Part shown: positions 20,682 through 32,753 of the stretch, in pieces
Position numbering within the stretch: the stretch's first letter is position 1
How the letters are laid out: every line of letters begins with the position of its first letter
From: Thermaurantimonas aggregans
Lineage (GTDB): Bacteria; Bacteroidota; Bacteroidia; Flavobacteriales; Schleiferiaceae
DNA length: 64,000 bases
Assembly (NCBI RefSeq): GCF_003851885.1
Contig: NZ_BHZE01000001.1
Location: forward strand, 62,001 to 126,000
Direction of reading: 5' to 3'
Position numbers and translations under genes: made by a program
The notes under the pieces: model-generated
Seen by the model: only the letters and a program-made list of their open reading frames with translations
Databases searched by the model: none
Told to the model about the DNA's origin: nothing

Positions 20682-21493
20682 TGGAAATCGACTCATCCTT
20701 TGCTATTGAGGTAAACAATCTAACAGTAAGTTATACTCATAAACCTGCTCTCTGGGATGTCGATTTGAGAATTCCTGAAGGCGTACTTTGTGGCATTATA
20801 GGACCGAATGGATCAGGTAAATCGACATTACTGAAAACAATTATGGGCCTGATAAAACCCGATACCGGGAGTGTTCGCGTTTTTGGTAAACCAATTGATC
20901 AGGTGCGAATGCGCGTGAGCTATGTTCCGCAAAGGGAGTCGGTTGATTGGCATTTTCCGGTTAGTGTGATGGATGTAGCCCTTATGGGCGTTTATTCCAG
21001 AAAAAGCATCTTTTCAAAGATTACTACTGCCGATAAAGAAATTGCTTTAGAAGCTTTGGCGAAGGTTAATCTTTTAGAATATAAAGACCGACACATCAGT
21101 CAGCTGAGCGGAGGTCAGCAGCAGAGGGTCTTTTTAGCTCGCGCTTTGGCACAACAAGCCGATCTATACATCATGGACGAGCCCTTTGTCGGGGTAGATG
21201 CTGTTACTGAAGATGCGATTTTAAAACTTCTTCAGGAGATGAAAAAAGAAGGTAAAACGGTTGTCATAGTACATCATGATTTACAGACTGCTTACGATTT
21301 TTTCGACTTTATTGTAATGCTGAATTCGCGGCTGGTAGTAGCTGCACCCAAAGAACAAGCTTTCAACAAAAGGTATCTACAAGAAGCATACGGAAGCAGG
21401 CTATCGATTTTAAGCAAAATCAGCGAACTGATAGGGGCTGATGAGTTAAAGCGCACCACAACTGAAATCAATCGCGATGTGGCAGATGCTTGA
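20681..21493 (+). CDS. Metal ABC transporter ATP-binding protein
   Basis: A 270-residue ATPase powering metal uptake. Walker A GPNGSGKST near residue 47, Q-loop in SYVPQRESVDWHFPV (the DWxFP signature is typical of Mn/Zn importers), ABC signature LSGGQQQRVFLARAL near 145, Walker B LYIMDEPFVGVD and switch His in VHHDLQ. It overlaps the next permease gene by 17 bases, indicating tight coupling. Confidence 0.95.
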   Translation: MEIDSSFAIEVNNLTVSYTHKPALWDVDLRIPEGVLCGIIGPNGSGKSTLLKTIMGLIKPDTGSVRVFGKPIDQVRMRVSYVPQRESVDWHFPVSVMDVALMGVYSRKSIFSKITTADKEIALEALAKVNLLEYKDRHISQLSGGQQQRVFLARALAQQADLYIMDEPFVGVDAVTEDAILKLLQEMKKEGKTVVIVHHDLQTAYDFFDFIVMLNSRLVVAAPKEQAFNKRYLQEAYGSRLSILSKISELIGADELKRTTTEINRDVADA

Positions 21494-22763
21494 GCCTAAT
21501 TTTTTGTGGGTCACAGCTGGCAGCATTTTTCTTTCTTTGGCCTCTTCTGCTGTTGGCACGCATTACTTTTTACAGAAAAAATCTCTTTCGGGCGACGTAA
21601 TATCACATGCTTTATTGCCTGGGGTGGTTCTTGCTTTTTTGCTCTTTGGTCAGAAGAGTTTCACAGTACTGTTTGTGGGTTCCTTTTTAAGTGGATTATT
21701 GTCTGTAGTTGTGATGCAATGGGTGCTAAGCGTCACTTTCATTAAACCGGATGTTTCGATGGCAGTGGTACTGACAGCTTTTTATGGCTTTGGAATTGTT
21801 CTGCTTACGTATGCTAACAAGCTTCCTTTAGGCAATCAAGCCGGTTTAGATACCTTTTTGTTTGGGAGAGCTGCTGCTCTTACCCCTGGAGATGTTCAGG
21901 CTTATGCCATTTTGGCTTTAATAATTTTAGGCATTCTAAGAATCATTGAACGTCCACTTATCACCATTTCATTCGATTCTCTATTTGCTGAAGCTGCCGG
22001 TATGAATGTCCATGCCATTCATAACATTATCGTGGCTTTGATCATCAGTGCTGTAGTGCTCGGTGTAAAAGCAGTGGGTGTAGTGCTGATGTCGGCATTT
22101 ATAATCTTACCACCCTTTATTGCCCGGTTGCTTGTAGATAATTATAATCGAATGAAGCTAATTGCTGCGCTTTCAGGGGTATTCATGGCCCTTGTTGGCT
22201 CAACAGTCAGTTATTATTACTCAAATATGCCCACAGGTCCGGTGATGGTGATAGTAGGCGGTGGTATTTTGATCCTCATAATTGTCATAAAGAATTTGCG
22301 CTTAAAAATCAGAAAATACCTATTGCAGCTAAGAAGCGCCAGACAAATTCAGCTCGAGGATTTATTAAAACACTTGTACAAACTCGAAATCGAAGAAAAT
22401 ACTAGGGTTGAAATCAACCTTTTGATTTCTTCGCTATTGGGTAAAAAAGGACTTTTTAAAAACAAAACTGAAGTTAGACGAACGATCCATCGCGCCATTG
22501 ACCGCGGTATGATCTCCCGAAAAGGAAACTTGATTGCCTTGACAGATATGGGGCTATCGGAGGCAATGAGAATTGTGCGCCTTCACCGGTTGTGGGAGGT
22601 GTATCAAGCATCAAAACTCGGCAAAAGAGTGGAAGCCATTCATGCAAGCGCTGAAACCATCGAGCACATCATTCCAAAAAACGTGGAGGAAATGCTGATA
22701 CAAGAACTCCAACAGCCTCAGAAAGATCCACACGGCAAAAACATACCCTATGATGGACATTGA
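21477..22763 (+). CDS. Metal ABC transporter permease fused to a C-terminal DtxR-like domain
   Basis: A 428-residue fusion. Residues 1-272 are a standard ABC-3 permease with eight or nine membrane helices and motifs SGDVISHALLPGV and GVVLMSAFIILPP. After a basic linker, residues 290-362 form a winged-helix-like domain and 363-428 a metal-binding/dimerisation domain. The latter repeats the DtxR/MntR ligand pattern: H370 and E374 in RLHRLWEVY, then H389, E393, E396 and H397 in IHASAETIEH, and ends KDPHGKNIP, as in the free regulator of the same operon. The cytoplasmic domain could sense metal and gate transport, or act on DNA from the membrane; which one is inference. Similar fusions occur in related bacteria. 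It overlaps both neighbours. Confidence 0.9.
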   Translation: MWQMLEPNFLWVTAGSIFLSLASSAVGTHYFLQKKSLSGDVISHALLPGVVLAFLLFGQKSFTVLFVGSFLSGLLSVVVMQWVLSVTFIKPDVSMAVVLTAFYGFGIVLLTYANKLPLGNQAGLDTFLFGRAAALTPGDVQAYAILALIILGILRIIERPLITISFDSLFAEAAGMNVHAIHNIIVALIISAVVLGVKAVGVVLMSAFIILPPFIARLLVDNYNRMKLIAALSGVFMALVGSTVSYYYSNMPTGPVMVIVGGGILILIIVIKNLRLKIRKYLLQLRSARQIQLEDLLKHLYKLEIEENTRVEINLLISSLLGKKGLFKNKTEVRRTIHRAIDRGMISRKGNLIALTDMGLSEAMRIVRLHRLWEVYQASKLGKRVEAIHASAETIEHIIPKNVEEMLIQELQQPQKDPHGKNIPYDGH

Positions 22764-23610
22764 GATTCTTCTCACAGCATTGTTCCTTTCTTCGGCTGCA
22801 GCTTTGGCCGGTTCTTTTTTAGTTCTGAGCGGAAGATCGATGTTTGGCGACGCTCTTTCACATGCTGTATTGCCGGGCATTGTGCTCATGTACCTTCTCA
22901 CAGGTGAGCGCTCTTTTGGGGGTTCATTGGTAGGAGCTATCCTAACGGCAATAGTAGTTTCTTATTTGATTGAACATCTTCAACACATAAGAGGAATACC
23001 ATCAGATGCAGCTATAGGAGCAGTTTTTGTAGTTTTTTTTGCTTTGGGAATAATTTTTATAAGTGGTCCTGCTGCTGGAGTAGATCTTGACCAAGAGTGC
23101 GTTCTCTTTGGCGAAATTGCATTTGTTCCCTTCGAGCGATGGATTGTTGGTGGAATAGATTTAGGTGCTAAAGGAGTTTGGATTTCAGCTGGCTTATTAG
23201 TGTTTGTGGGTTTATTTCTCCATTTCTTTAGGTCTCTATTATCTGTCGTAACTTTTGATACAGAATATGCTAATGCGATTGGCATTCCTTCGAAAAAGTG
23301 GCAGCAGCTCTACAGCATTCTTATATCTGTAGTAGTTGTTATAGGTTTTGAATTAGTAGGAGCTGTTTTAATTGTATCGCTTTTAGTAGCGCCGTCAGCT
23401 ATTGCGTGGTTATTTTCTGCCCGAATCAATGGAATGCTTCGATTAGCAGTTATGGTGGCAATTGTGAGTTCTTTAGTGGGTACTGGAGTCGCTGATGTAT
23501 TCGATGTTTCCATCAGCGGCTCCATTGCCAGTGTACAGGGAATCCTGTTCTTTATAGCATCGGCAGTTTACCGAAGAAGATTCGCTAATAAGCTTAAAAA
23601 GGTTCACTAA
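22750..23610 (+). CDS. Metal ABC transporter permease, second subunit
   Basis: A 286-residue ABC-3 family membrane protein with eight or nine hydrophobic helices and the family motif FGDALSHAVLPGIVLMY near residue 33. It lacks the DtxR-like extension of its partner; the two permeases probably form a heterodimer around one ATPase pair. It starts 14 bases before the end of the first permease gene (ATG at 22750 or 22753) and ends the operon. Its stop overlaps the convergent response regulator gene by 4 bases, with no obvious terminator between them. Confidence 0.93.
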   Translation: MMDIEILLTALFLSSAAALAGSFLVLSGRSMFGDALSHAVLPGIVLMYLLTGERSFGGSLVGAILTAIVVSYLIEHLQHIRGIPSDAAIGAVFVVFFALGIIFISGPAAGVDLDQECVLFGEIAFVPFERWIVGGIDLGAKGVWISAGLLVFVGLFLHFFRSLLSVVTFDTEYANAIGIPSKKWQQLYSILISVVVVIGFELVGAVLIVSLLVAPSAIAWLFSARINGMLRLAVMVAIVSSLVGTGVADVFDVSISGSIASVQGILFFIASAVYRRRFANKLKKVH

Positions 23611-24314
23611 CCGTTGTTGGATTGCTTTTCGATCAGGCGGAAACCTTCGCCGTGAATATTGATTATCTCGAGGCTTGGATCCTCTTTAATGTACTTGCGA
23701 ATTTTTGCCATATACACATCCATGCTTCGAGCTGTGAAGTAACTGTCGTCTTTCCAGATTTTCAAGAGCGCATCCGTTCTCTTAACGAGGTCGTTTTTGT
23801 GCTTAAAAAGCAGTGCAAGCAATGCAATTTCTTTAGGCGAAAGCGTGCGGGCTTTATCAAAAATTTTGAGCTCTCTTAGTCGGGTATTGATAGTGCAATT
23901 TCCAGCGGTAAGCACTTCGGGGATTTCGCTGTCTTTGTTGTCGATTTCCTTGCGATTAAGCAGAGCGTAGATCTTGTGCAATAGAATTTCTGAGTCAAAC
24001 GGTTTGATGATGTAGTCGTCAGCACCTGACTGATATCCTTTGATCACATCGTCTTTAAGTGCCTTAGCTGTTAAGAAAATGATCGGTGTTACCTTGTCGA
24101 TCGCCCGAATATCTGCAGCGAGAGAAAAGCCGTCTTTTTTTGGCATCATCACATCGAGAATGATGATGTCGTAGTTGTTAGATTTAAAAAGATTAAGACC
24201 CATGATTCCATCACGGGCTAAGGTCACTTCAAAGTTGTTTATTTCAAGGTAATCCTTTAGTACCAATCCGAAGTTGGTATCATCTTCTACCAATAAGATT
24301 TTTTTTGTGCTCAT
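23607..24314 (-). CDS. OmpR-family response regulator (RprY-like)
   Basis: A 235-residue DNA-binding regulator: receiver domain 1-120 with acidic E10/D11/D12, phospho-acceptor D54 (IIILDVMMPKKDG) and lysine in DYIIKPFDSE, then a winged-helix trans_reg_C domain (about 135-230, LSPKEIALLALLFKHKNDLVKR). The upstream gene, 12 bases away, encodes its likely kinase. It is the last gene of the six-gene minus-strand operon that begins with the E1-nitroreductase gene, so it may be the transcriptional output of that cluster. Resemblance to Bacteroides RprXY is by overall arrangement. Confidence 0.93.
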   Translation of the reverse strand: MSTKKILLVEDDTNFGLVLKDYLEINNFEVTLARDGIMGLNLFKSNNYDIIILDVMMPKKDGFSLAADIRAIDKVTPIIFLTAKALKDDVIKGYQSGADDYIIKPFDSEILLHKIYALLNRKEIDNKDSEIPEVLTAGNCTINTRLRELKIFDKARTLSPKEIALLALLFKHKNDLVKRTDALLKIWKDDSYFTARSMDVYMAKIRKYIKEDPSLEIINIHGEGFRLIEKQSNNG

Positions 24315-24326
24315 TTTGTCGTGTTT

Positions 24327-25781
24327 TTAATTGTTTTTGAAGGTTACCGTGAAAATGCTCCCCTTGTTGAGTTCACTTTTCACTTTTATATCTCCGTTGT
24401 GAAGTTTTACGATTTCTTGTACGTAGCTAAGTCCGAGGCCATGACCCTTTACGTCATGAATGTTTCCGGTGGTTTGTCGGTAGAATCGATCGAAAACTCT
24501 TTTTTGTACTTCTGGGGTCATGCCAATTCCTTTGTCTTTTACTGCTATCGAAACTTCGTTTGGTTTAGGTGTAAAGAGTTCTATTTGAATGTCTAAGATT
24601 TCAGGTGAATACTTAATTGCATTATCCAGCAAATTTATGATAACATTTTTAATGTGTTCTTTATCTCCAAAAATTCTTGTATTCGATGCATTGTTGATCA
24701 ACCTAATGTTTCCGTTTTTGCTCTCAATGATGTACTTCATGTGATGTATAGCTTCTTCCGTTACTTCGAGTAAGTCGAAGTTTTCGAGTTTTAATTGAAG
24801 TTGTTTTCTGTCGAGCTGAGCAAGTCGAAGTACGATTTCAACTTGCTGATTCATGCGTTTATTTTCTTCTTTGATTTTATTGACGTATTTCATTAATCGC
24901 TCAGGATCGGAAATCACTTTCGGATTGCTCATCAGATCTGTAGTCAGCCCTATGGTAGCAATTGGGGTTTTAAATTCATGGGTCATATTGTTTATGAAAT
25001 CCGATTTAATCCTTGAGATTTCCTTTTGTGTAAGCATTTGATCGACTGTGATATAAAAAGTAATAATTATGATCAGGATCAAAAAGAAAGTCAACGCAAT
25101 AAGCCAAAATACACTTTTGTAGAGAAACGATTTCTTTTTTGGAAAATAAAGAAAAAGCCATACAGGTGGCGACATCACATCGTATCGAAGGAGCATAGTC
25201 TTGTATTCTACTCGAGCTGGGTCAAAATTTTTTGATCGAATTTTAGTCAATTGTTGTTTCTCATAGATTCCGTACTCAAAGGGAGTATTGATGTTTTTAA
25301 ATGCTAATTCGCTTTTGATCAACGAATCAAGATTGATTCCTTCCAATCGTTCATCAATTGATTGAAAGGTGAAAAAATCAGTCATCATCAGTTCTTTTAC
25401 AAGCGAATCGACTACTTGAATTCGGCGCTGATAAAATTTTTTCAAAGATTTATTAAAGCTCTGCGCGATATCAGTTTTGTCTAATTGTTCTGAGCCCGAC
25501 TGACCTGTGCCAGGCATGTTTTCAAATACCTCGTCGATCGACTCTACTAATTCATTTTCATCAGTGGATTTTTGAAGATTGAGTTTTTGGATGATTTTCC
25601 GAAATTTTTCGCTGTTGTCTATTTTTTCTGCTACTCGGTTTAATGCCTCGTTTACATCTCGATCTAAGTTGGTTTCTGATAGCTTTAGGGCAGCATTCAT
25701 CCATAAAACTTGAATGATTATCACCCCAAAAAGTGCTATCGAATTTAGGCTAATAATGAATTTAATGTTCTTGAATTTCAA
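24327..25781 (-). CDS. Membrane sensor histidine kinase (RprX-like)
   Basis: A 484-residue kinase beginning with TTG at 25781; no ATG lies nearby in frame. Membrane helices at about 9-29 and 222-246 enclose a roughly 190-residue periplasmic sensor rich in charged helices. HisKA follows with phospho-acceptor H268 (NNMTHEFKTPIATIG), then HATPase (INLLDNAIKYS, KDKGIGMTPE, GHGLGLSYV). It overlaps the preceding REC-kinase gene by 20 bases, indicating co-translation, and is followed closely by its response regulator. The sensed signal is unknown. Confidence 0.92.
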   Translation of the reverse strand: MKFKNIKFIISLNSIALFGVIIIQVLWMNAALKLSETNLDRDVNEALNRVAEKIDNSEKFRKIIQKLNLQKSTDENELVESIDEVFENMPGTGQSGSEQLDKTDIAQSFNKSLKKFYQRRIQVVDSLVKELMMTDFFTFQSIDERLEGINLDSLIKSELAFKNINTPFEYGIYEKQQLTKIRSKNFDPARVEYKTMLLRYDVMSPPVWLFLYFPKKKSFLYKSVFWLIALTFFLILIIIITFYITVDQMLTQKEISRIKSDFINNMTHEFKTPIATIGLTTDLMSNPKVISDPERLMKYVNKIKEENKRMNQQVEIVLRLAQLDRKQLQLKLENFDLLEVTEEAIHHMKYIIESKNGNIRLINNASNTRIFGDKEHIKNVIINLLDNAIKYSPEILDIQIELFTPKPNEVSIAVKDKGIGMTPEVQKRVFDRFYRQTTGNIHDVKGHGLGLSYVQEIVKLHNGDIKVKSELNKGSIFTVTFKNN

Positions 25782-26868
25782 GTAGATGTTTTTTGTTTGG
25801 CAAAGTTATGCAAACAGTAGTACCCACAGAAACTTCTGAACTCAGCTCTATGTGACCTTCCAACTTTTCTACAGCTTCTTTTACTAAATAAAGCCCAACT
25901 CCGTTTCCAGAAATTTCTGGTGAAACGCGGAAAAACATGTTAAAGACTTTTTCCTGTAATTCATTCACTATGCCTTCTCCATTGTCGCGTATTATGATTT
26001 TCGCCTCTTTTTCATCTGAAAATACTTCGATATTTACCTCGGGATTTGTTATGTCTTTGCGTCTAAATTTAATGGCGTTCGAAATTAAATTCCCGAGAAT
26101 AATTCTCAATCTAAACGTATCCGTAACGAAGTCACACTTAGAATAGATGCTGACGGATGTCTTTATGTTGTTTTGATGTATTTCAAAAGAAAATTCTTTC
26201 AAAACAGATTCAATAAAACACTTAAAATCAATAGCCTGGTAATCGAACACATCCTTCCCGTTTTGATAATATTGAACTATTGAACGAATGAAAGAATCTA
26301 GCCTAATGACGCTATCTTCGATCATTGAGAAATACTGGATACTCAACGGGTCGGTTACATCCTCTCTAGCCATATTTAATAGCCCTTTAATCGTAGTAAT
26401 TGGGGCTCGCAAATCGTGAGAGGCAGAATATATGAATCTATTCAATTCTTCATTAGTTTTCTCAAGTTTTTTAATTTGTTCGCGTATGGTTTCACCGGCT
26501 AAATAATATTTCACTGCATTATCAAGAATCAAAGCAACATCGTTCAGGTCCCAAGGTTTTTTTATGTAGTTGTAAATATGTCCTTTGTTTACAGCATCGA
26601 TTACTGCACTGATATCAGAATAAGCAGAGGTCAGAATTTTAATGGCATCTGGATGTAGTTGAGATGCCGTATATAAGAATTCAACACCCGTTACAATGGG
26701 CATTCTTTGATCAGTGATGATTATTTCTGGCTTTTCTCTTTTGATGATATCAATGGCTTCTTGCTGATCGTGTGTTACAAAAACTTCATACTTTCTTCTA
26801 AAGGCAGCAAGGAATGACTGCAAGTTGCCAAGTTCGTCGTCTAAATAAAGTATTTTTATTTTTCTCAT
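25762..26868 (-). CDS. Cytoplasmic receiver-histidine kinase hybrid (REC-HisKA-HATPase)
   Basis: A 368-residue soluble protein without membrane segments. The receiver domain (1-122) has acidic D10/D11/E12 and phospho-acceptor D53 (IIITDQRMPIVTG) and belongs to the RpfG-like receiver group, closely resembling the stand-alone receiver encoded divergently at 32280 (compare AVIDAVNKGHIYNYIKKPW). A coiled coil (123-145) joins it to HisKA with H151 (YSASHDLRAPITTIKG) and an HATPase domain (GNLISNAIKFRRK, RDNGEG, GNGVGLYLV). A receiver in front of a kinase implies a relay: phosphate from another kinase would tune this one. ATGA overlap of 4 bases with the 7TM kinase gene. Confidence 0.92.
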   Translation of the reverse strand: MRKIKILYLDDELGNLQSFLAAFRRKYEVFVTHDQQEAIDIIKREKPEIIITDQRMPIVTGVEFLYTASQLHPDAIKILTSAYSDISAVIDAVNKGHIYNYIKKPWDLNDVALILDNAVKYYLAGETIREQIKKLEKTNEELNRFIYSASHDLRAPITTIKGLLNMAREDVTDPLSIQYFSMIEDSVIRLDSFIRSIVQYYQNGKDVFDYQAIDFKCFIESVLKEFSFEIHQNNIKTSVSIYSKCDFVTDTFRLRIILGNLISNAIKFRRKDITNPEVNIEVFSDEKEAKIIIRDNGEGIVNELQEKVFNMFFRVSPEISGNGVGLYLVKEAVEKLEGHIELSSEVSVGTTVCITLPNKKHLLEIQEH

Positions 26869-29030
26869 TGTGTTTCAAGTATTTCGGGTATTTCTGCGAG
26901 TTTTTTATAAATGTACAGTTTGAATGTAGTACCTTTACCATATTCGGAATCAACCCAAATTCGTCCATAGTGTTTTTCAATGATTTTATAAACGATTGAC
27001 ATTCCAAGACCAGTCCCTTCACCTACTTTTTTGGTCGTAAAAAAGGGTTCAAAAATTCTCTTTTTAACATCTTCAGTCATTCCAATGCCATTATCACTAA
27101 TTTCAACTACAAAATATTCATTTTCGTGATATGTTTTAATTGTTATTTTTCCAAAATCGTTTGCCTCATAAGCTTTTGCATTTATGGCATCTATTGCATT
27201 TGAAAAGATGTTCATAAAAACTTGATTTAATTTACCAGGATAGCATTCGATGTCTGATTCTTTGCAATAGTCTTTTTCAACAATAATTCTGTTTTTAATT
27301 TTATTGTTTAGCAGCACAAGTGTGGCTTCAATATTTTCATTAATGTTAGTAAATTTTAACGCGTCTTCATCCAAACGACTAAAAGTACGAAGGCCAACTA
27401 CAATTTCAGTGGTACGTTTGGCACCTTCTTCAATTCCTTTAAGCAAGTCGTAAATTTCCTTTTTAATGTATTCTAAATCGACCTGCTTTTTTAAAGAAAC
27501 GATTTCTTTAGCTTCCGGATGGTTGTCAAAGGTTTTTTCATATGCTTCAAGTATTTCCAGCAGATCGTTTATGTCGAGTTTGAGAGGTTGAATGCCACTT
27601 GTGATAAAGTTGACCGGATTGTTGATCTCATGGGCAATGCCGGCGGTTAGCTGACCCAAGCTTGCCATTTTTTCTTTATCCACTAATTGCGATTGAGCTT
27701 CTTTTAATTCCTGTAGGGTTTTTTCCAATTTTTGATTGGTCTTTGAGAGTTCTTCTGTGCGTTTTTGTACTTTTTCTTCAAGGATGATGTTTTGTTCACG
27801 TATAAGTTTTTCGTTTTCTTCAGCTTTTAATAGGGCTTGAAGCTGTGAATATTCTTTTTCTCGCTGTAAAACTTTTATCTTATCTGCTAGGGCAAATGAT
27901 AGTAATAGTACTTCAATGCCTGAGCCGATGAACATGGTATATTTTGTAAAATTGTTGTAAGGAAGAATTCCAAAATCTTTCATGGAAAATACAAAAATCC
28001 CCACCATAAAAATACTCCATGCTATTAGATAAAATTTGGCCGAACGTATACCTGAAATGGCCATTCTGATTGAAATGTAAAGTATGATAATAGCTACTAA
28101 TCCCTGTGCAGGAAGTAGAATTTGATAGCCTATTTTAATCGATGAAAAGAGAGTAATTAAAATCACTAAAACATATTGGTATATAAATAAATTTAATATA
28201 AAGTAAAAGTTTTTGCTGTATTCTTTAATATGGAGAAAGCTAATCATGAAAAGGATTCCGGTAATACTGGCCAGAGCTGAAAAAAGCGTTGGTGAAATCT
28301 CCATTAAAAATGGAGAAAATTGAAAATACAGCAGATGTAATCCGTTAAAACTCGATTGAGCCACTCCCACAAATAATGTGTGAATGACATACCATAAATA
28401 GGATTTATCTCGAATAGTAATGAGCAGAAAGAGATTGTACAAAAACATTGAAGCGATTAGCCCTACATATAGACCATTTATGAGCAAATAATTTCTCTCG
28501 ATATCTCTGTTGTATTCAATCGATTCTAACTTTAGTGGCACGAGCATTTGCTCTTCATTGTGAATCTGAATATACACCTCTAATTCATTAGAATCATAAA
28601 AAATTAAACGATACACATGGTCAGTACTGCGCACATCTCTTTTGTCAATGGTAATATGCGTATTACATGTTTTTTCTATTGTATCTTTTTCAGAAAGTAT
28701 GTAAATTTTTGAGCTGTGTAAAATAGGATTTGCAATTCTTAATTTTATGGAATCCCGAGTACTGTAATTTTTTACTTTAAATCGCACCCATAATTCTCCA
28801 TTTATATTTCCAAAATTAATGCGATTATCTGTTGGTGATTCAAAAGGTTTATTTACAACATCCTTTAATTTTAATCCATACACATTTGAAATGTAAAATT
28901 GTGAAAACTTATTGATGTCAATTACATCTTCACCTCGGTATTCTATTATTGGAATATTTTGCTCTGATTTTGCACTATTTATACTACTGAAACTAATTAC
29001 TAAAAACGCTAATTTTATAAAAGTTTTCAT
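26865..29030 (-). CDS. 7TM-DISM receptor histidine kinase
   Basis: A 721-residue membrane sensor. Signal peptide 1-22; periplasmic 7TMR-DISMED2-type ligand-binding domain about 30-172 (INFGNINGELWVRFKVKN is characteristic); seven hydrophobic helices about 182-383; a long coiled coil about 385-455; HisKA with H467 (GQLTAGIAHEINNPVNFI); HATPase with NIFSNAIDAIN and GTGLGMSIVYKI. DISM receptors are thought to bind carbohydrate-like or other small ligands outside the membrane. It lies 4 bases after the acyltransferase-like gene and overlaps the REC-kinase gene, so an enzyme-made ligand sensed by this protein is an attractive but unproven idea. Confidence 0.93.
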   Translation of the reverse strand: MKTFIKLAFLVISFSSINSAKSEQNIPIIEYRGEDVIDINKFSQFYISNVYGLKLKDVVNKPFESPTDNRINFGNINGELWVRFKVKNYSTRDSIKLRIANPILHSSKIYILSEKDTIEKTCNTHITIDKRDVRSTDHVYRLIFYDSNELEVYIQIHNEEQMLVPLKLESIEYNRDIERNYLLINGLYVGLIASMFLYNLFLLITIRDKSYLWYVIHTLFVGVAQSSFNGLHLLYFQFSPFLMEISPTLFSALASITGILFMISFLHIKEYSKNFYFILNLFIYQYVLVILITLFSSIKIGYQILLPAQGLVAIIILYISIRMAISGIRSAKFYLIAWSIFMVGIFVFSMKDFGILPYNNFTKYTMFIGSGIEVLLLSFALADKIKVLQREKEYSQLQALLKAEENEKLIREQNIILEEKVQKRTEELSKTNQKLEKTLQELKEAQSQLVDKEKMASLGQLTAGIAHEINNPVNFITSGIQPLKLDINDLLEILEAYEKTFDNHPEAKEIVSLKKQVDLEYIKKEIYDLLKGIEEGAKRTTEIVVGLRTFSRLDEDALKFTNINENIEATLVLLNNKIKNRIIVEKDYCKESDIECYPGKLNQVFMNIFSNAIDAINAKAYEANDFGKITIKTYHENEYFVVEISDNGIGMTEDVKKRIFEPFFTTKKVGEGTGLGMSIVYKIIEKHYGRIWVDSEYGKGTTFKLYIYKKLAEIPEILETQ

Positions 29031-29755: not shown

Positions 29756-32026
29756 TTATGCGGTGTAATGAGTGAATATTTGATGAATTGGAAGTCGATA
29801 GGATTTTTTCACAACATCGGTAGATTTAAACAATCGAAATACAAATCCAAAGGTGTAATCTATATCCAATTGGAATAGTTTTTTGAATTTATCCTCTGCC
29901 TCGGTCAATAAGGCATTCTGCCAAGGTCGATGGTATGTGTTGGGGTACAATCTATTTCTGTACATCAAAAATGTTATCGGACTTACTGGTTGAAAGCCTA
30001 TTTCGTATTGTGCTGCAAGTATCCAAATTTTCTCCACAGTTTTGCCCAATTGTAGCATTTGGTCGCGTTGGCACCCGGGAGATTGAACCATCATGAGTGC
30101 TCCGGATTTCACTACGGTTTCGCGGCTCATTTTTTCGAGTCCTTTGCCTAAGCCCCAGTCGGCAGTAAGCGATAAGGCATTCCAATCGCGTAGAACTCTG
30201 AAGGCAGCTCTATCGCTTACAGTAGGATTTAAGGTTTCGATGTCTATTCCATCACAAGTTTCTCGGGCATGTGCATCATTCCAACGGGTTTCGCTCATAA
30301 AGTCGTGATGAGCCCACGGATGGGTCAATCGGATGCGATCTGCAAGACCGACGAGCTTGGCAAATTCTTCGATGTCGGATCTGTGAGTGAGGAGTTTAAT
30401 TTTTTGACCGGGGGCAAGCTGATTTTCAGCTTCTTCAAGGAAGTCAGCATCTATTTTTTCGATGCTTCCTTTTAATCGGTTTGTATGACGCTCGTACAGA
30501 TAATGCACCTTAGCAACTGAAGTGAAATCATGGTTTTCAGTTCGCCCAACAATTTGTATGGAGGCAATCAGATTTGGGAATTCATGATTTGAAACGAATT
30601 GAAGGTGGGTTTTAAGGTGAAGTGCCTTAGCAGCAGTTTCAAAGTTTTCGAGCGCTGCTCCTAAGGCCAAATAACTGCCTAAATGATCGACATCAAGGAA
30701 AGAAAAAGCTCTCTTTGGGTTTAGAAACAGATAAAAGGTATCTTCGAAAAGCAACCACTTCCAGGGTTGCACGTTTCCGCCGGAAGGGGCCACTGCGGCT
30801 GCACGTATCAAGGATTCGATTTCTTCGGTCGATAGTCTTATGTACTCGTTTTTCCTTGGCAATTGTTTGACAAAATGATGGAAGTAGAGGTTCCAATCTG
30901 GCTCGTCAGGAGGTTGAGGAATGGTTGGTTTTGCCTCGCCTGCTGATTTATCGGGTATTAGCTCTTCAAAGTCTAAATAGTATCTACCACTTTGGGTGTA
31001 TTGGTTTAGAAAAATTCTTCGCGCCGTATCAGCTCCCATAGCTCCGCCCAGAAATACGCTCGATGCTAATTGAGGCCAGGTGTTGATGGTTTGCTGCACT
31101 TCGAGCATACTTGCCTTCAGACGAGCACTCATCTGTTCAGCGCTCACCATATCGAGTATATAGGGAATCTTCTCTTCGTTTGTGAGTTCAGTGATAGTGT
31201 CGGGATTTAGACCTTCGGCCAGGCCATGGAGTATTGGGCGTAGAGGTTCGAGGTCGAAGCGCTCTACATCGAGCATACCTCTATCAGAGGTGTCCATCAA
31301 TACTGGAATACCGAGCTCTCGGGCGCGATGACGAGCGATGATTTTAATGTCAAGTCCGTCGCATTCATCTACGAGCAAGTCGATTTTTCCATCAGTGAGT
31401 AAGAAGTCATCGAGATTTTCACGCGTGATGCCTTCCGGGTAGATTTTTACTTTTATAAAAGGATCTATTTCCGCTATTTCTCGAGCTGCAATTATTACCT
31501 TTTTTAAGCCAATGTTGGTTATGCCTGAACGCAAGCGGTTGATATTGCTCAGTTCTAATTCGTCGAAGTCAGCTAAGCGGAATTCCGTGGCTGAGCGTTC
31601 CATAGCCATTGTAATGGCGATTGTTTGTCCCACTGACAATCCGATGATTCCGACTTTTTTAGATGAAAGAATTTTTTGTTCTTGTGGAGTGATTTTGTAC
31701 TGATTGCGCGATGTTCGTACTTTAACGAAGTCTTCTTCTGAAGGAATTCGACATGCTGTGTTTTTCCAAGGGTAATATACCCAAATATCTGATTTTTCTT
31801 CTAATTTTTGTTGGATAAAATCTTTTGATTTTTGTTTAAATAGAGGATGTTTTGAGGTGATTTCTGGATATAATATTTTAAATAATTCGTGGTAAATGGA
31901 TTCTCTTAAGTCGTAAATAATGGGATTTTTAAAGTCTTTTTGTGTGCTCTGAAATTCATCGTTTGTAAAAAATTCTGCACGCCAATGTTCGATGGTATTT
32001 TCTATTGGAGTAATATTTAAATTCAT
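29756..32026 (-). CDS. ThiF/E1-like and nitroreductase fusion (Rv1355c/MoeY-like)
   Basis: About 756 residues from the ATG at 32026 (a GTG at 32050 is in frame). An N-terminal region (1-105) leads to a ThiF/E1-type adenylation domain (about 110-345) with nucleotide loop VGIIGLSVGQ and LADFDELELSNINRL near 151-165, where the acidic and Asn/Arg residues of the E1 active site sit. A Pro-rich linker (about 360-378) joins it to an FMN-dependent nitroreductase domain (about 395-750) with APSGGNVQPWKW at 413-424, the FMN-binding signature. The same domain order is found in mycobacterial Rv1355c. E1 domains adenylate a carboxylate and nitroreductases reduce or oxidise with FMN; the substrate is unknown. 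First gene of the operon. Confidence 0.88.
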   Translation of the reverse strand: MNLNITPIENTIEHWRAEFFTNDEFQSTQKDFKNPIIYDLRESIYHELFKILYPEITSKHPLFKQKSKDFIQQKLEEKSDIWVYYPWKNTACRIPSEEDFVKVRTSRNQYKITPQEQKILSSKKVGIIGLSVGQTIAITMAMERSATEFRLADFDELELSNINRLRSGITNIGLKKVIIAAREIAEIDPFIKVKIYPEGITRENLDDFLLTDGKIDLLVDECDGLDIKIIARHRARELGIPVLMDTSDRGMLDVERFDLEPLRPILHGLAEGLNPDTITELTNEEKIPYILDMVSAEQMSARLKASMLEVQQTINTWPQLASSVFLGGAMGADTARRIFLNQYTQSGRYYLDFEELIPDKSAGEAKPTIPQPPDEPDWNLYFHHFVKQLPRKNEYIRLSTEEIESLIRAAAVAPSGGNVQPWKWLLFEDTFYLFLNPKRAFSFLDVDHLGSYLALGAALENFETAAKALHLKTHLQFVSNHEFPNLIASIQIVGRTENHDFTSVAKVHYLYERHTNRLKGSIEKIDADFLEEAENQLAPGQKIKLLTHRSDIEEFAKLVGLADRIRLTHPWAHHDFMSETRWNDAHARETCDGIDIETLNPTVSDRAAFRVLRDWNALSLTADWGLGKGLEKMSRETVVKSGALMMVQSPGCQRDQMLQLGKTVEKIWILAAQYEIGFQPVSPITFLMYRNRLYPNTYHRPWQNALLTEAEDKFKKLFQLDIDYTFGFVFRLFKSTDVVKKSYRLPIHQIFTHYTA

Positions 32027-32279
32027 AGTGTGGAATTTTTTTAAGCCCACCTTGTGAGCGATGCGCTAAAATAGAAAAATTTCGATTTTACAAAAAAGAA
32101 GCTAAGTTTTGCAAAAAAATTATTTTTTTCGACAAAGGAGTACACTGTTCAATCTTTCTGTTTTTTGTTTAAAAAATTTAATCTAAATTTAAAATTGTGA
32201 TGTTTATTTGTGGTTTGGAAAAGCTAGTAGGTCATTATCAAAAATTGTACTTCTATTTGCATTCTTGAATCAAAATACT

Positions 32280-32753
32280 ATGAACGAAAGAGATTTGAAA
32301 TCCATCAAAGTAGTGTATGTAGATGATGAAATGTCGAATCTCACTGCATTTAAATCGAATTTTCGACGTTTCTACACGGTAGAGACATTTATTAATCCCA
32401 CTGAAGCTTTGGAGTGGCTCGATGAAAATGAGGCACATGTGGTAATAAGTGATCAACGTATGCCCGTAATGCAGGGAACCGAATTTTTGGGAATTCTATA
32501 TGAAAAAAAGCCGGATATTGTACGCATGCTTCTTACAGGATATGCTGATATTAAGGCGGTAATTGATGCAATAAATGTGGGTCATGTGTTTCGATACATT
32601 ACCAAACCCTGGCATGAGCACGATATGCGCACTGCCATTGAAAGTGCTTATGAAATGTATCGCCTTAAAAAAGAAAACGCCGAACTGCTGCGAAAGCTTC
32701 AAAGAATTAATGAACAATTGGAATTCATGTATCGACAAAGCATACTGTCCTAA
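32280..32753 (+). CDS. Stand-alone RpfG-like receiver protein
   Basis: A 157-residue protein from the ATG at 32280. Receiver domain 8-128 with D15/D16, phospho-acceptor D58 (VVISDQRMPVMQG), the TGYADIKAVIDAINVGH helix and the lysine of YITKPW; a C-terminal helical tail (about 130-157, KKENAELLRKLQRINEQLE) may form a coiled coil. It has no DNA-binding or enzymatic output domain. It is divergent from the six-gene signalling operon and its receiver closely matches that of the REC-kinase in that operon, so it may act as a phosphate sink or diffusible relay between its kinases. It ends at a hairpin terminator. Confidence 0.88.
   Translation: MNERDLKSIKVVYVDDEMSNLTAFKSNFRRFYTVETFINPTEALEWLDENEAHVVISDQRMPVMQGTEFLGILYEKKPDIVRMLLTGYADIKAVIDAINVGHVFRYITKPWHEHDMRTAIESAYEMYRLKKENAELLRKLQRINEQLEFMYRQSILS

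Follow-up and report, generated by a model that had tools for sequence, protein, structure and literature searches.

The 64,000-nucleotide stretch of Thermaurantimonas aggregans DNA analysed here (contig NZ_BHZE01000001.1, positions 62,001 to 126,000; the window) encodes on its minus strand an E1-like adenylation domain fused to a flavin mononucleotide (FMN) nitroreductase. This protein, here termed TrzS, is the first of an operon that also holds a predicted amino acid N-acyltransferase (TrzA), a 7TMR-DISM sensor histidine kinase and further phosphorelay genes. We consider it reasonably probable that the operon both makes and senses a small lipid signal drawn from the acyl-oxazolones and related N-acyl amino acid derivatives. 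The proposal is built on gene linkage, co-occurrence, a separate kinase group in whole-protein trees, enzyme exchange and conserved active-site residues, all observed here, and from these we infer the identity of a ligand, its release and an output. It is an even call whether Bacteroidota hold a widespread family of cell-cell signalling systems that pair a conserved N-acyl amino acid synthase with a dedicated 7TMR-DISM kinase and its phosphorelay, and whose tailoring enzyme can be exchanged to give lineage-specific signals. The novelty lies in the gene surroundings, a sensor-kinase operon, and not in the enzyme itself, which is a member of the known ThiF-nitroreductase (Rv1355c) family and of an enzyme type already known.

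The initial annotation of the open reading frame (ORF) was correct in describing a fusion of E1-like and FMN nitroreductase domains; it made no mention of the acyltransferase or sensor-kinase genes in the operon. All three motifs that it quoted (VGIIGLSVGQ, ADFDELELSNINRL and APSGGNVQPWKW) are present in the translation. Pfam detects ThiF (3e-14, residues 119-252) and Nitroreductase (4.7e-07, residues 406-435), and the NCBIfam model NF005901, 'Rv1355c family protein', matches residues 44-759 with 704.5 bits, above its cut-off of 476. Residues are numbered from the GTG at position 32050, the annotation having used the ATG at 32026. TrzS is thus laid out as a single chain in which a ThiF-type cyclase (residues ~1-380) precedes a nitroreductase-fold FDO domain, an FMN desaturase (residues ~400-764). 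The structure prediction that the annotation had suggested for both halves was run with AlphaFold2 on 14 fused homologs (mean pLDDT 80.8, pTM 0.66). In this model the ThiF half matches ThiF 1zud (Z 23.9, residues 105-365) and ThiF-type 9egb (Z 24.9), while residues 402-764 match the Acg homologue 2ymv (Z 32.2, 2.4 Å over 305 residues). Tenacibaculum AclA ranks second among the structural matches of TrzS, and a literature search on it yielded no publication. A homolog with the same fusion, 65% identical to TrzS, is present in another genome of the family to which the window genome belongs, and the fusion is therefore not an artefact of assembly or of chance.

TrzA gave no match in Pfam or NCBIfam and its profile found no match among PDB sequences, so a fold search was needed. 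Its AlphaFold2 model (pLDDT 90.4) is closest in the PDB to FeeM (2g0b; Z 17.0 over 182 residues), an N-acyl amino acid synthase, followed by LasI (1ro5; Z 15.4). Further matches are other acyl-homoserine lactone synthases interspersed with general GNAT enzymes. The adjoining FeeM/OxzA-like N-acyltransferase that characterises the family is accordingly present 4 bases from TrzS, and a free N-acyl amino acid supplied by this neighbour is the most likely TrzS substrate. Comparable folds have been described for experimentally studied relatives, the TyzA model being similar to FeeM and BjaI and sharing its scaffold with that of OxzA (PMC10404671).

Acylation, cyclisation and desaturation have been established by others, for orthologs only. 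Rv1355c was named TrzS in a December 2025 paper, in which TrzA N-acylates L-tryptophan and M. smegmatis TrzS uses ATP to cyclise N-acyl-tryptophan, and FMN with O2 for the desaturation that follows (PMC12856293). OxzAB of Pseudoalteromonas rubra (de Rond 2021, as recounted in PMC12856293) and TyzACB of M. tuberculosis perform equivalent chemistry on tyrosine or phenylalanine (PMC12856293, PMC10404671). With the N-acyl tryptazolone pathway TrzAS of M. tuberculosis, M. smegmatis and Rhodococcus jostii RHA1 (Rv1356c-Rv1355c), the window pair shares the ThiF-FDO fusion family, the adjoining acyltransferase and the ATP-site Asp (PMC12856293); window TrzS is ~32-37% identical to fused plasmid-borne actinobacterial relatives. 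The NF005901 match, the ortholog chemistry, the FeeM-like partner and the conserved residues together identify a new member of a known family.

Among 145 distinct ThiF domains, 10 of the 13 conserved-looking columns examined are invariant, including D231, which is Asp in 145/145. This residue corresponds to the ATP-site D217 of M. smegmatis TrzS through its 323-residue spacing to R540, a mapping made by way of L195, a homolog on an M. dioxanotrophicus plasmid, and not from the M. smegmatis sequence itself. The FDO Arg R540 maps to either R572 (R in 82 and K in 26 of 116) or R574 (R in 110/116), and the likely column for FDO Q651 holds Q in 68 and H in 48 of 116 with the spacing off by 2. Of the two binding sites on which the initial annotation had staked its reading, the ATP site is nearly invariant in the columns examined and the flavin domain is mostly, not wholly, conserved. 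Glu110 of TrzA is kept in 146/147. On the signalling side the presumed phospho-acceptor His467 of the 7TM kinase is present in 132/132 aligned sequences, Asp53 and His151 of the receiver-kinase in 114/114 and 113/114, and the lone receiver Asp in 146/146. From homology to the studied orthologs, fold and residue conservation, the predicted pathway would open with TrzA acylating an amino acid, probably an aromatic one. The ThiF half of TrzS would then adenylate the free carboxyl and cyclise the N-acyl amino acid, forming a 5(4H)-oxazolone, and the nitroreductase half would desaturate the alpha-beta bond using FMN and O2.

The minus-strand order in the window is TrzS, TrzA, 7TMR-DISM kinase, receiver-kinase, a further kinase and an OmpR-type regulator, with successive gaps of 4, 4, -4, -20 and 12 bases. 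Pfam assigns 7TMR-DISM_7TM (1.9e-40), 7TMR-DISMED2 (2.8e-14) and HATPase_c (1.2e-25) to the 7TM kinase, and Response_reg (3.1e-13), HisKA and HATPase_c to the receiver-kinase. Conservation of this set was assessed from 38 loci plus 80 from named genomes, which are the best of 522 confirmed matches and not a random sample. With the window added and 6 duplicates removed these gave 113 distinct loci; 84 of them are flanked on each side by at least 5 kb, and the 29 with short flanks were dropped. TrzA is found at 82 of the 84, the 7TM kinase at 78 (lone 7TM parts included), the receiver-kinase at 74, the lone receiver at 80 and all four at 71. Pedobacter, Mucilaginibacter, Algoriphagus, Daejeonella, Arcticibacter, Arachidicoccus and many uncultured Bacteroidota are represented among the best 80 of 522. 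The set stays together though its order varies between lineages, as TrzS-TrzA or TrzA-TrzS and with the receiver upstream or downstream. Within 4 kb of the enzymes 141/1259 ORFs are 7TM kinases, and farther out 0/1316 (duplicates included); 7TMR-DISM genes are scarce, at 1-5 per genome in each of 12 genomes, which qualifies this enrichment, and the nearer count takes in four loci found through the kinase (L211, L212, L215 and L216), which tells against the proposal.

Among 295 genomes of the class, 54 were positive with the TrzA profile, and neighbourhoods were taken from 40 of the 44 new ones (G749, G788, G944 and G818 were left out). TrzA was called in 38/40, those of L266 and L296 being missed through overlapping ORFs. 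The 7TM kinase adjoins the enzymes at 37 of these 38 loci, including L265, which is cut by a contig end; L297 has none. With an ORF list that keeps overlapping frames, the 7TM kinase appears in 39/40 stretches, L265 being the exception.

The kinase also follows the synthase across genomes. In the order set (395 genomes, kinase scored present at E 1e-75 or better) it occurs in 30/30 synthase-positive genomes versus 7/365 others (Fisher p ~1e-38, shared ancestry ignored), and in the phylum set (395 genomes) in 11/11 versus 6/384 (Fisher p ~2e-17, shared ancestry again ignored). The order exceptions comprise two strong matches in genomes 88-90% complete (G629, G686), three weaker ones, of which G417 and G438 carry an enzyme-swapped module and G407 is cut by a contig, and two limited to the kinase domain (G637, G692). 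Of the phylum exceptions G126 and G383 carry an enzyme-swapped module and the other four match in the kinase domain only. In several genomes whose cyclase locus has no adjoining kinase, one is present at another place, on a different contig in G453 and ~102 kb away in G599, and G534 and G662 have two synthase loci each plus an additional unlinked kinase copy. In a quick whole-protein tree the linked and unlinked kinases (33) form one group against 10 other 7TMR-DISM proteins of this genome set, with a Shimodaira-Hasegawa approximate likelihood ratio test (SH-aLRT) support of 100. In a second such tree 24 module kinases, hand-chosen from 132, separate from 10 paralogs, those which the sensor profile recovered out of 17 paralog loci, with SH-aLRT 96. 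Long branches are flagged in both. G000:C7:66995-67603 (in L328) is a second 7TMR-DISM protein of its genome that lies outside the module kinase group and has a close counterpart in G411.

A survey of 163 locus records, duplicates included, showed that the tailoring gene is exchangeable. It is a ThiF-nitroreductase fusion in 124 records, ThiF alone in 27, a class I S-adenosylmethionine (SAM) methyltransferase in 4, an ICMT-family methyltransferase in 2, a FAD_binding_4 oxidase in 2 and ThiF fused to an unknown domain in 2, with none in the remaining 2 (one at a contig end). The cyclase is thus replaced by either kind of methyltransferase or by the FAD oxidase in 8/163, with acyltransferase and sensor retained; the four ICMT and FAD-oxidase loci were found through the kinase and the four class I methyltransferase loci through TrzA. 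Most of these swapped enzymes could mask the carboxylate or alter the alpha carbon of an N-acyl amino acid. A search for the nitroreductase half in 20 genomes (E 0.001) matched 0/16 ThiF-only genomes and recovered 4/4 fused-enzyme controls, a remoter desaturase being possible, and presence or absence of the nitroreductase switches at least 12 times on FastTree kinase trees. The cyclase with an unknown C-terminal domain occurs at L077:9055-10887 (minus) and L078:1-1695 (plus). The 236 C-terminal residues from L077 have no NCBIfam or PDB sequence match, and at both loci the 7TM kinase is not adjoining, an unlinked kinase ortholog being present in the same genomes.

On the strength of the conserved phosphorelay and catalytic residues and of a phc-like layout, we propose an acyl-oxazolone or its hydrolysis product as the ligand of the 7TM kinase. 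The neutral acyl-oxazolone, or the product of its hydrolysis, would be sensed by the 7TMR-DISM kinase of the same operon, and phosphate would pass via the receiver-kinase and lone receivers to an output, as proposed for PhcBSRQ. These sensing steps are suggested by gene linkage, co-occurrence, the shared kinase group and analogy. Ralstonia PhcBSRQ likewise combines in one operon a signal-making enzyme, a sensor kinase, a receiver-kinase without DNA-binding domain and a lone receiver (PMC8578825). The Bacteroidota modules have this gene content, a likeness drawn from layout. PhcB makes a 3-hydroxy fatty acid methyl ester as the Phc signal (PMC8578825), whereas the signal of the Bacteroidota module would be an N-acyl amino acid derivative. 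The window departs from the Phc layout in that the small downstream receiver is replaced by a histidine kinase and OmpR-type regulator and the lone receiver is the divergent one. This terminal pair (23607-25781) was seen in the window and L041 only, among the tabulated loci. The regulator scores 261.8 bits against NCBIfam RprY, under the cut-off of 370, and is a possible DNA-binding output. Other Bacteroidota would retain the acylation, sensing and phosphorelay steps with ThiF alone, an ICMT-type or class I SAM methyltransferase or an FAD oxidase as tailoring enzyme, and such exchange would yield chemically different 'dialects'.

The trzAS neighbours named in M. tuberculosis are cyclic di-GMP genes (PMC12856293), whereas those in the window and other Bacteroidota are a conserved 7TMR-DISM phosphorelay. 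OxzAB and TyzACB share the N-acyl amino acid synthase, ThiF cyclase and nitroreductase-fold oxidase, but a dedicated sensor kinase is not mentioned in the sections covered of PMC10404671 and PMC12856293. The N-acyl tyrosine clusters of Stieleria, Thalassotalea and M. kyonggiensis also combine an N-acyl amino acid synthase with ThiF and nitroreductase, those of Stieleria holding a methyltransferase gene in addition, and the term 'histidine kinase' is absent from the main text of that paper (PMC12479983). Synthases with such a sensor operon may already be among the proteins in the similarity network of PMC12856293, whose colouring follows neighbouring oxidases and acyltransferases. A search of the open-access literature, made partly by titles and abstract openings, found no earlier account of a locus joining synthase and 7TMR-DISM kinase.

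Several observations weigh against a secreted signal with a dedicated receptor. The co-occurrence statistics take no account of shared ancestry. No 7TM kinase lies within 5 kb at 6/84 loci (L070, L075, L076, L077, L120 and L131), and L120 (Dyadobacter) and L131 (a metagenome-assembled genome) have neither TrzA nor 7TM kinase nearby, unlinked copies not having been searched for. On two Actinomycetota plasmids the incomplete annotation lists no such kinase close to the synthase, and none lies near that of L146 (Blastocatellia) in the stretch examined, where the left flank is short. A careful tree of the sensor part, in which 2 of 34 rows (WIN, L063) were cut too long and run into the kinase part, supports one group at only 68/80. 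The sensor half also tracks the tailoring enzyme no clearly better than the kinase half: tailoring-label changes on FastTree trees number 16 for the sensor and 19 for the kinase, with 19 for TrzA and a shuffled mean of ~31, so that labels cluster on all three trees, and no tree showed the sensor following the tailoring enzyme beyond common descent. Finally, oxazolones hydrolyse readily, and tryptazolones are enriched in cell pellets and acyl-tryptophans in the supernatant (PMC12856293). Easy hydrolysis and pellet enrichment are together awkward for a secreted oxazolone.

The strongest competing explanation, which we regard as possible yet clearly less probable than signalling, is that the kinases merely regulate the pathway, an outside cue such as stress or nutrients switching on an oxazolone that serves as an antimicrobial, a membrane lipid or redox protection. 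Regulators commonly adjoin biosynthetic genes, and the terminal OmpR-type regulator of the window operon could act on promoters. Several Proteobacteria made oxazolones in response to sub-inhibitory antibiotics, and tyz genes have been tied to oxidative stress (PMC12856293). Pathway regulation fits less well with the retention of the kinase while the tailoring enzyme is exchanged and with the make-up of the relay, since in the examples run none of the lone receiver, receiver-kinase and small receiver carries a DNA-binding domain. Besides the enzymes and signalling genes, moreover, no further like-sized ORF recurs across lineages, the other ORFs being unannotated. Somewhat less likely again is that the producing cell itself reads the product, as an intracellular or membrane-borne messenger and not a cell-cell signal. 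The pellet enrichment of tryptazolones and the cyclic di-GMP genes in M. tuberculosis would suit such a messenger, as would a GGDEF gene near TrzS on a Rhodococcus plasmid, but the proposed receptor has an extracellular DISMED2 domain and the equivalent Phc layout serves a secreted signal (PMC8578825).

The initial annotation had likened the fusion to enzymes that form heterocycles in peptides and ribosomally made natural products, by analogy with McbC. Its central idea, carboxyl activation and flavin oxidation of one substrate to give a heterocycle, holds by way of the ortholog TrzS (PMC12856293), whereas the peptide substrate is not supported. E1-like enzymes that activate peptide C-termini, such as MccB, are among the structural matches of TrzS, but orthologs act on N-acyl amino acids (PMC12856293, PMC10404671). 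An azole-type peptide modification is very improbable and was set aside because the partner is by fold an N-acyl amino acid synthase, FeeM-like, and no YcaO is found among the ten ORFs scanned around the gene. The least credible reading is a molybdopterin or thiamine E1 fused to a flavoprotein, in keeping with MoeY, an old label of this type: the matches to ThiF and MoeB models are weak, no sulfur-carrier family is among the hits of the ten ORFs scanned, and the reading was discarded because NCBIfam ThiF (54.4 bits against a cut-off of 159) and MoeB (34.5 against 266) score far under their cut-offs while NF005901 is far above its own. MoeW is a comparable label in PMC10404671.

If the signalling proposal is correct, acyl-oxazolones would gain a missing biological role, their physiological function having been called 'a major unresolved question' by the tryptazolone authors (PMC12856293). 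An operon linking the synthases to one sensor-kinase group offers a concrete answer that can be tested in cultured Pedobacter and Algoriphagus. It would also provide Bacteroidota with a candidate quorum-sensing chemistry together with its matching receptor.

Table 1. Features of the trzS locus, in positions of the window.
Feature	Position	Strand	Basis
TrzS/OxzB-like predicted acyl-oxazolone synthase	29756..32026 (ATG) or 29756..32050 (GTG)	minus	NF005901, Pfam, AlphaFold2 model, D231
TrzA/OxzA/FeeM-like predicted amino acid N-acyltransferase, 238 aa	29035..29751	minus	4 bases after TrzS; AlphaFold2 fold
7TMR-DISM sensor histidine kinase with DISMED2 extracellular domain, proposed receptor	26865..29030	minus	Pfam
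Receiver and histidine kinase protein without DNA-binding domain, PhcR-like layout	25762..26868	minus	Pfam
Further sensor histidine kinase, operon end	24327..25781	minus	Pfam HisKA, HATPase_c; gene order
OmpR-type response regulator, nearest RprY	23607..24314	minus	Pfam Response_reg, Trans_reg_C
Stand-alone receiver, ~157 aa, divergent from TrzS, ATG 32280	32280..32753	plus	Pfam Response_reg 7.1e-18
Intergenic region between the divergent genes, presumed promoters of both	32027..32279	.	sequence reading

Some neighbouring genes at individual loci merit mention. In Algoriphagus-type loci the gene 3' of the receiver-kinase was tested once (L058:15045-15620) and proved to be an inorganic pyrophosphatase, and such an enzyme would pull the adenylating reaction forward. 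On a Rhodococcus plasmid (L196:5864-10112) the GGDEF gene near the Rv1355c family gene resembles the cyclic di-GMP genes beside trzAS in M. tuberculosis. On a Streptomyces plasmid (L197:6990-9904) a ThiF-family gene is followed directly by a beta-ketoacyl-ACP synthase III gene, a pair that is possibly a further relative of the pathway. TrzS of the Blastocatellia locus (L146:1720-5153) adjoins a protein with weak GNAT matches. In the window itself, the ORF at 21477-22763 joins an ABC-3 metal permease to the C-terminal domain of a DtxR-type iron-dependent repressor.

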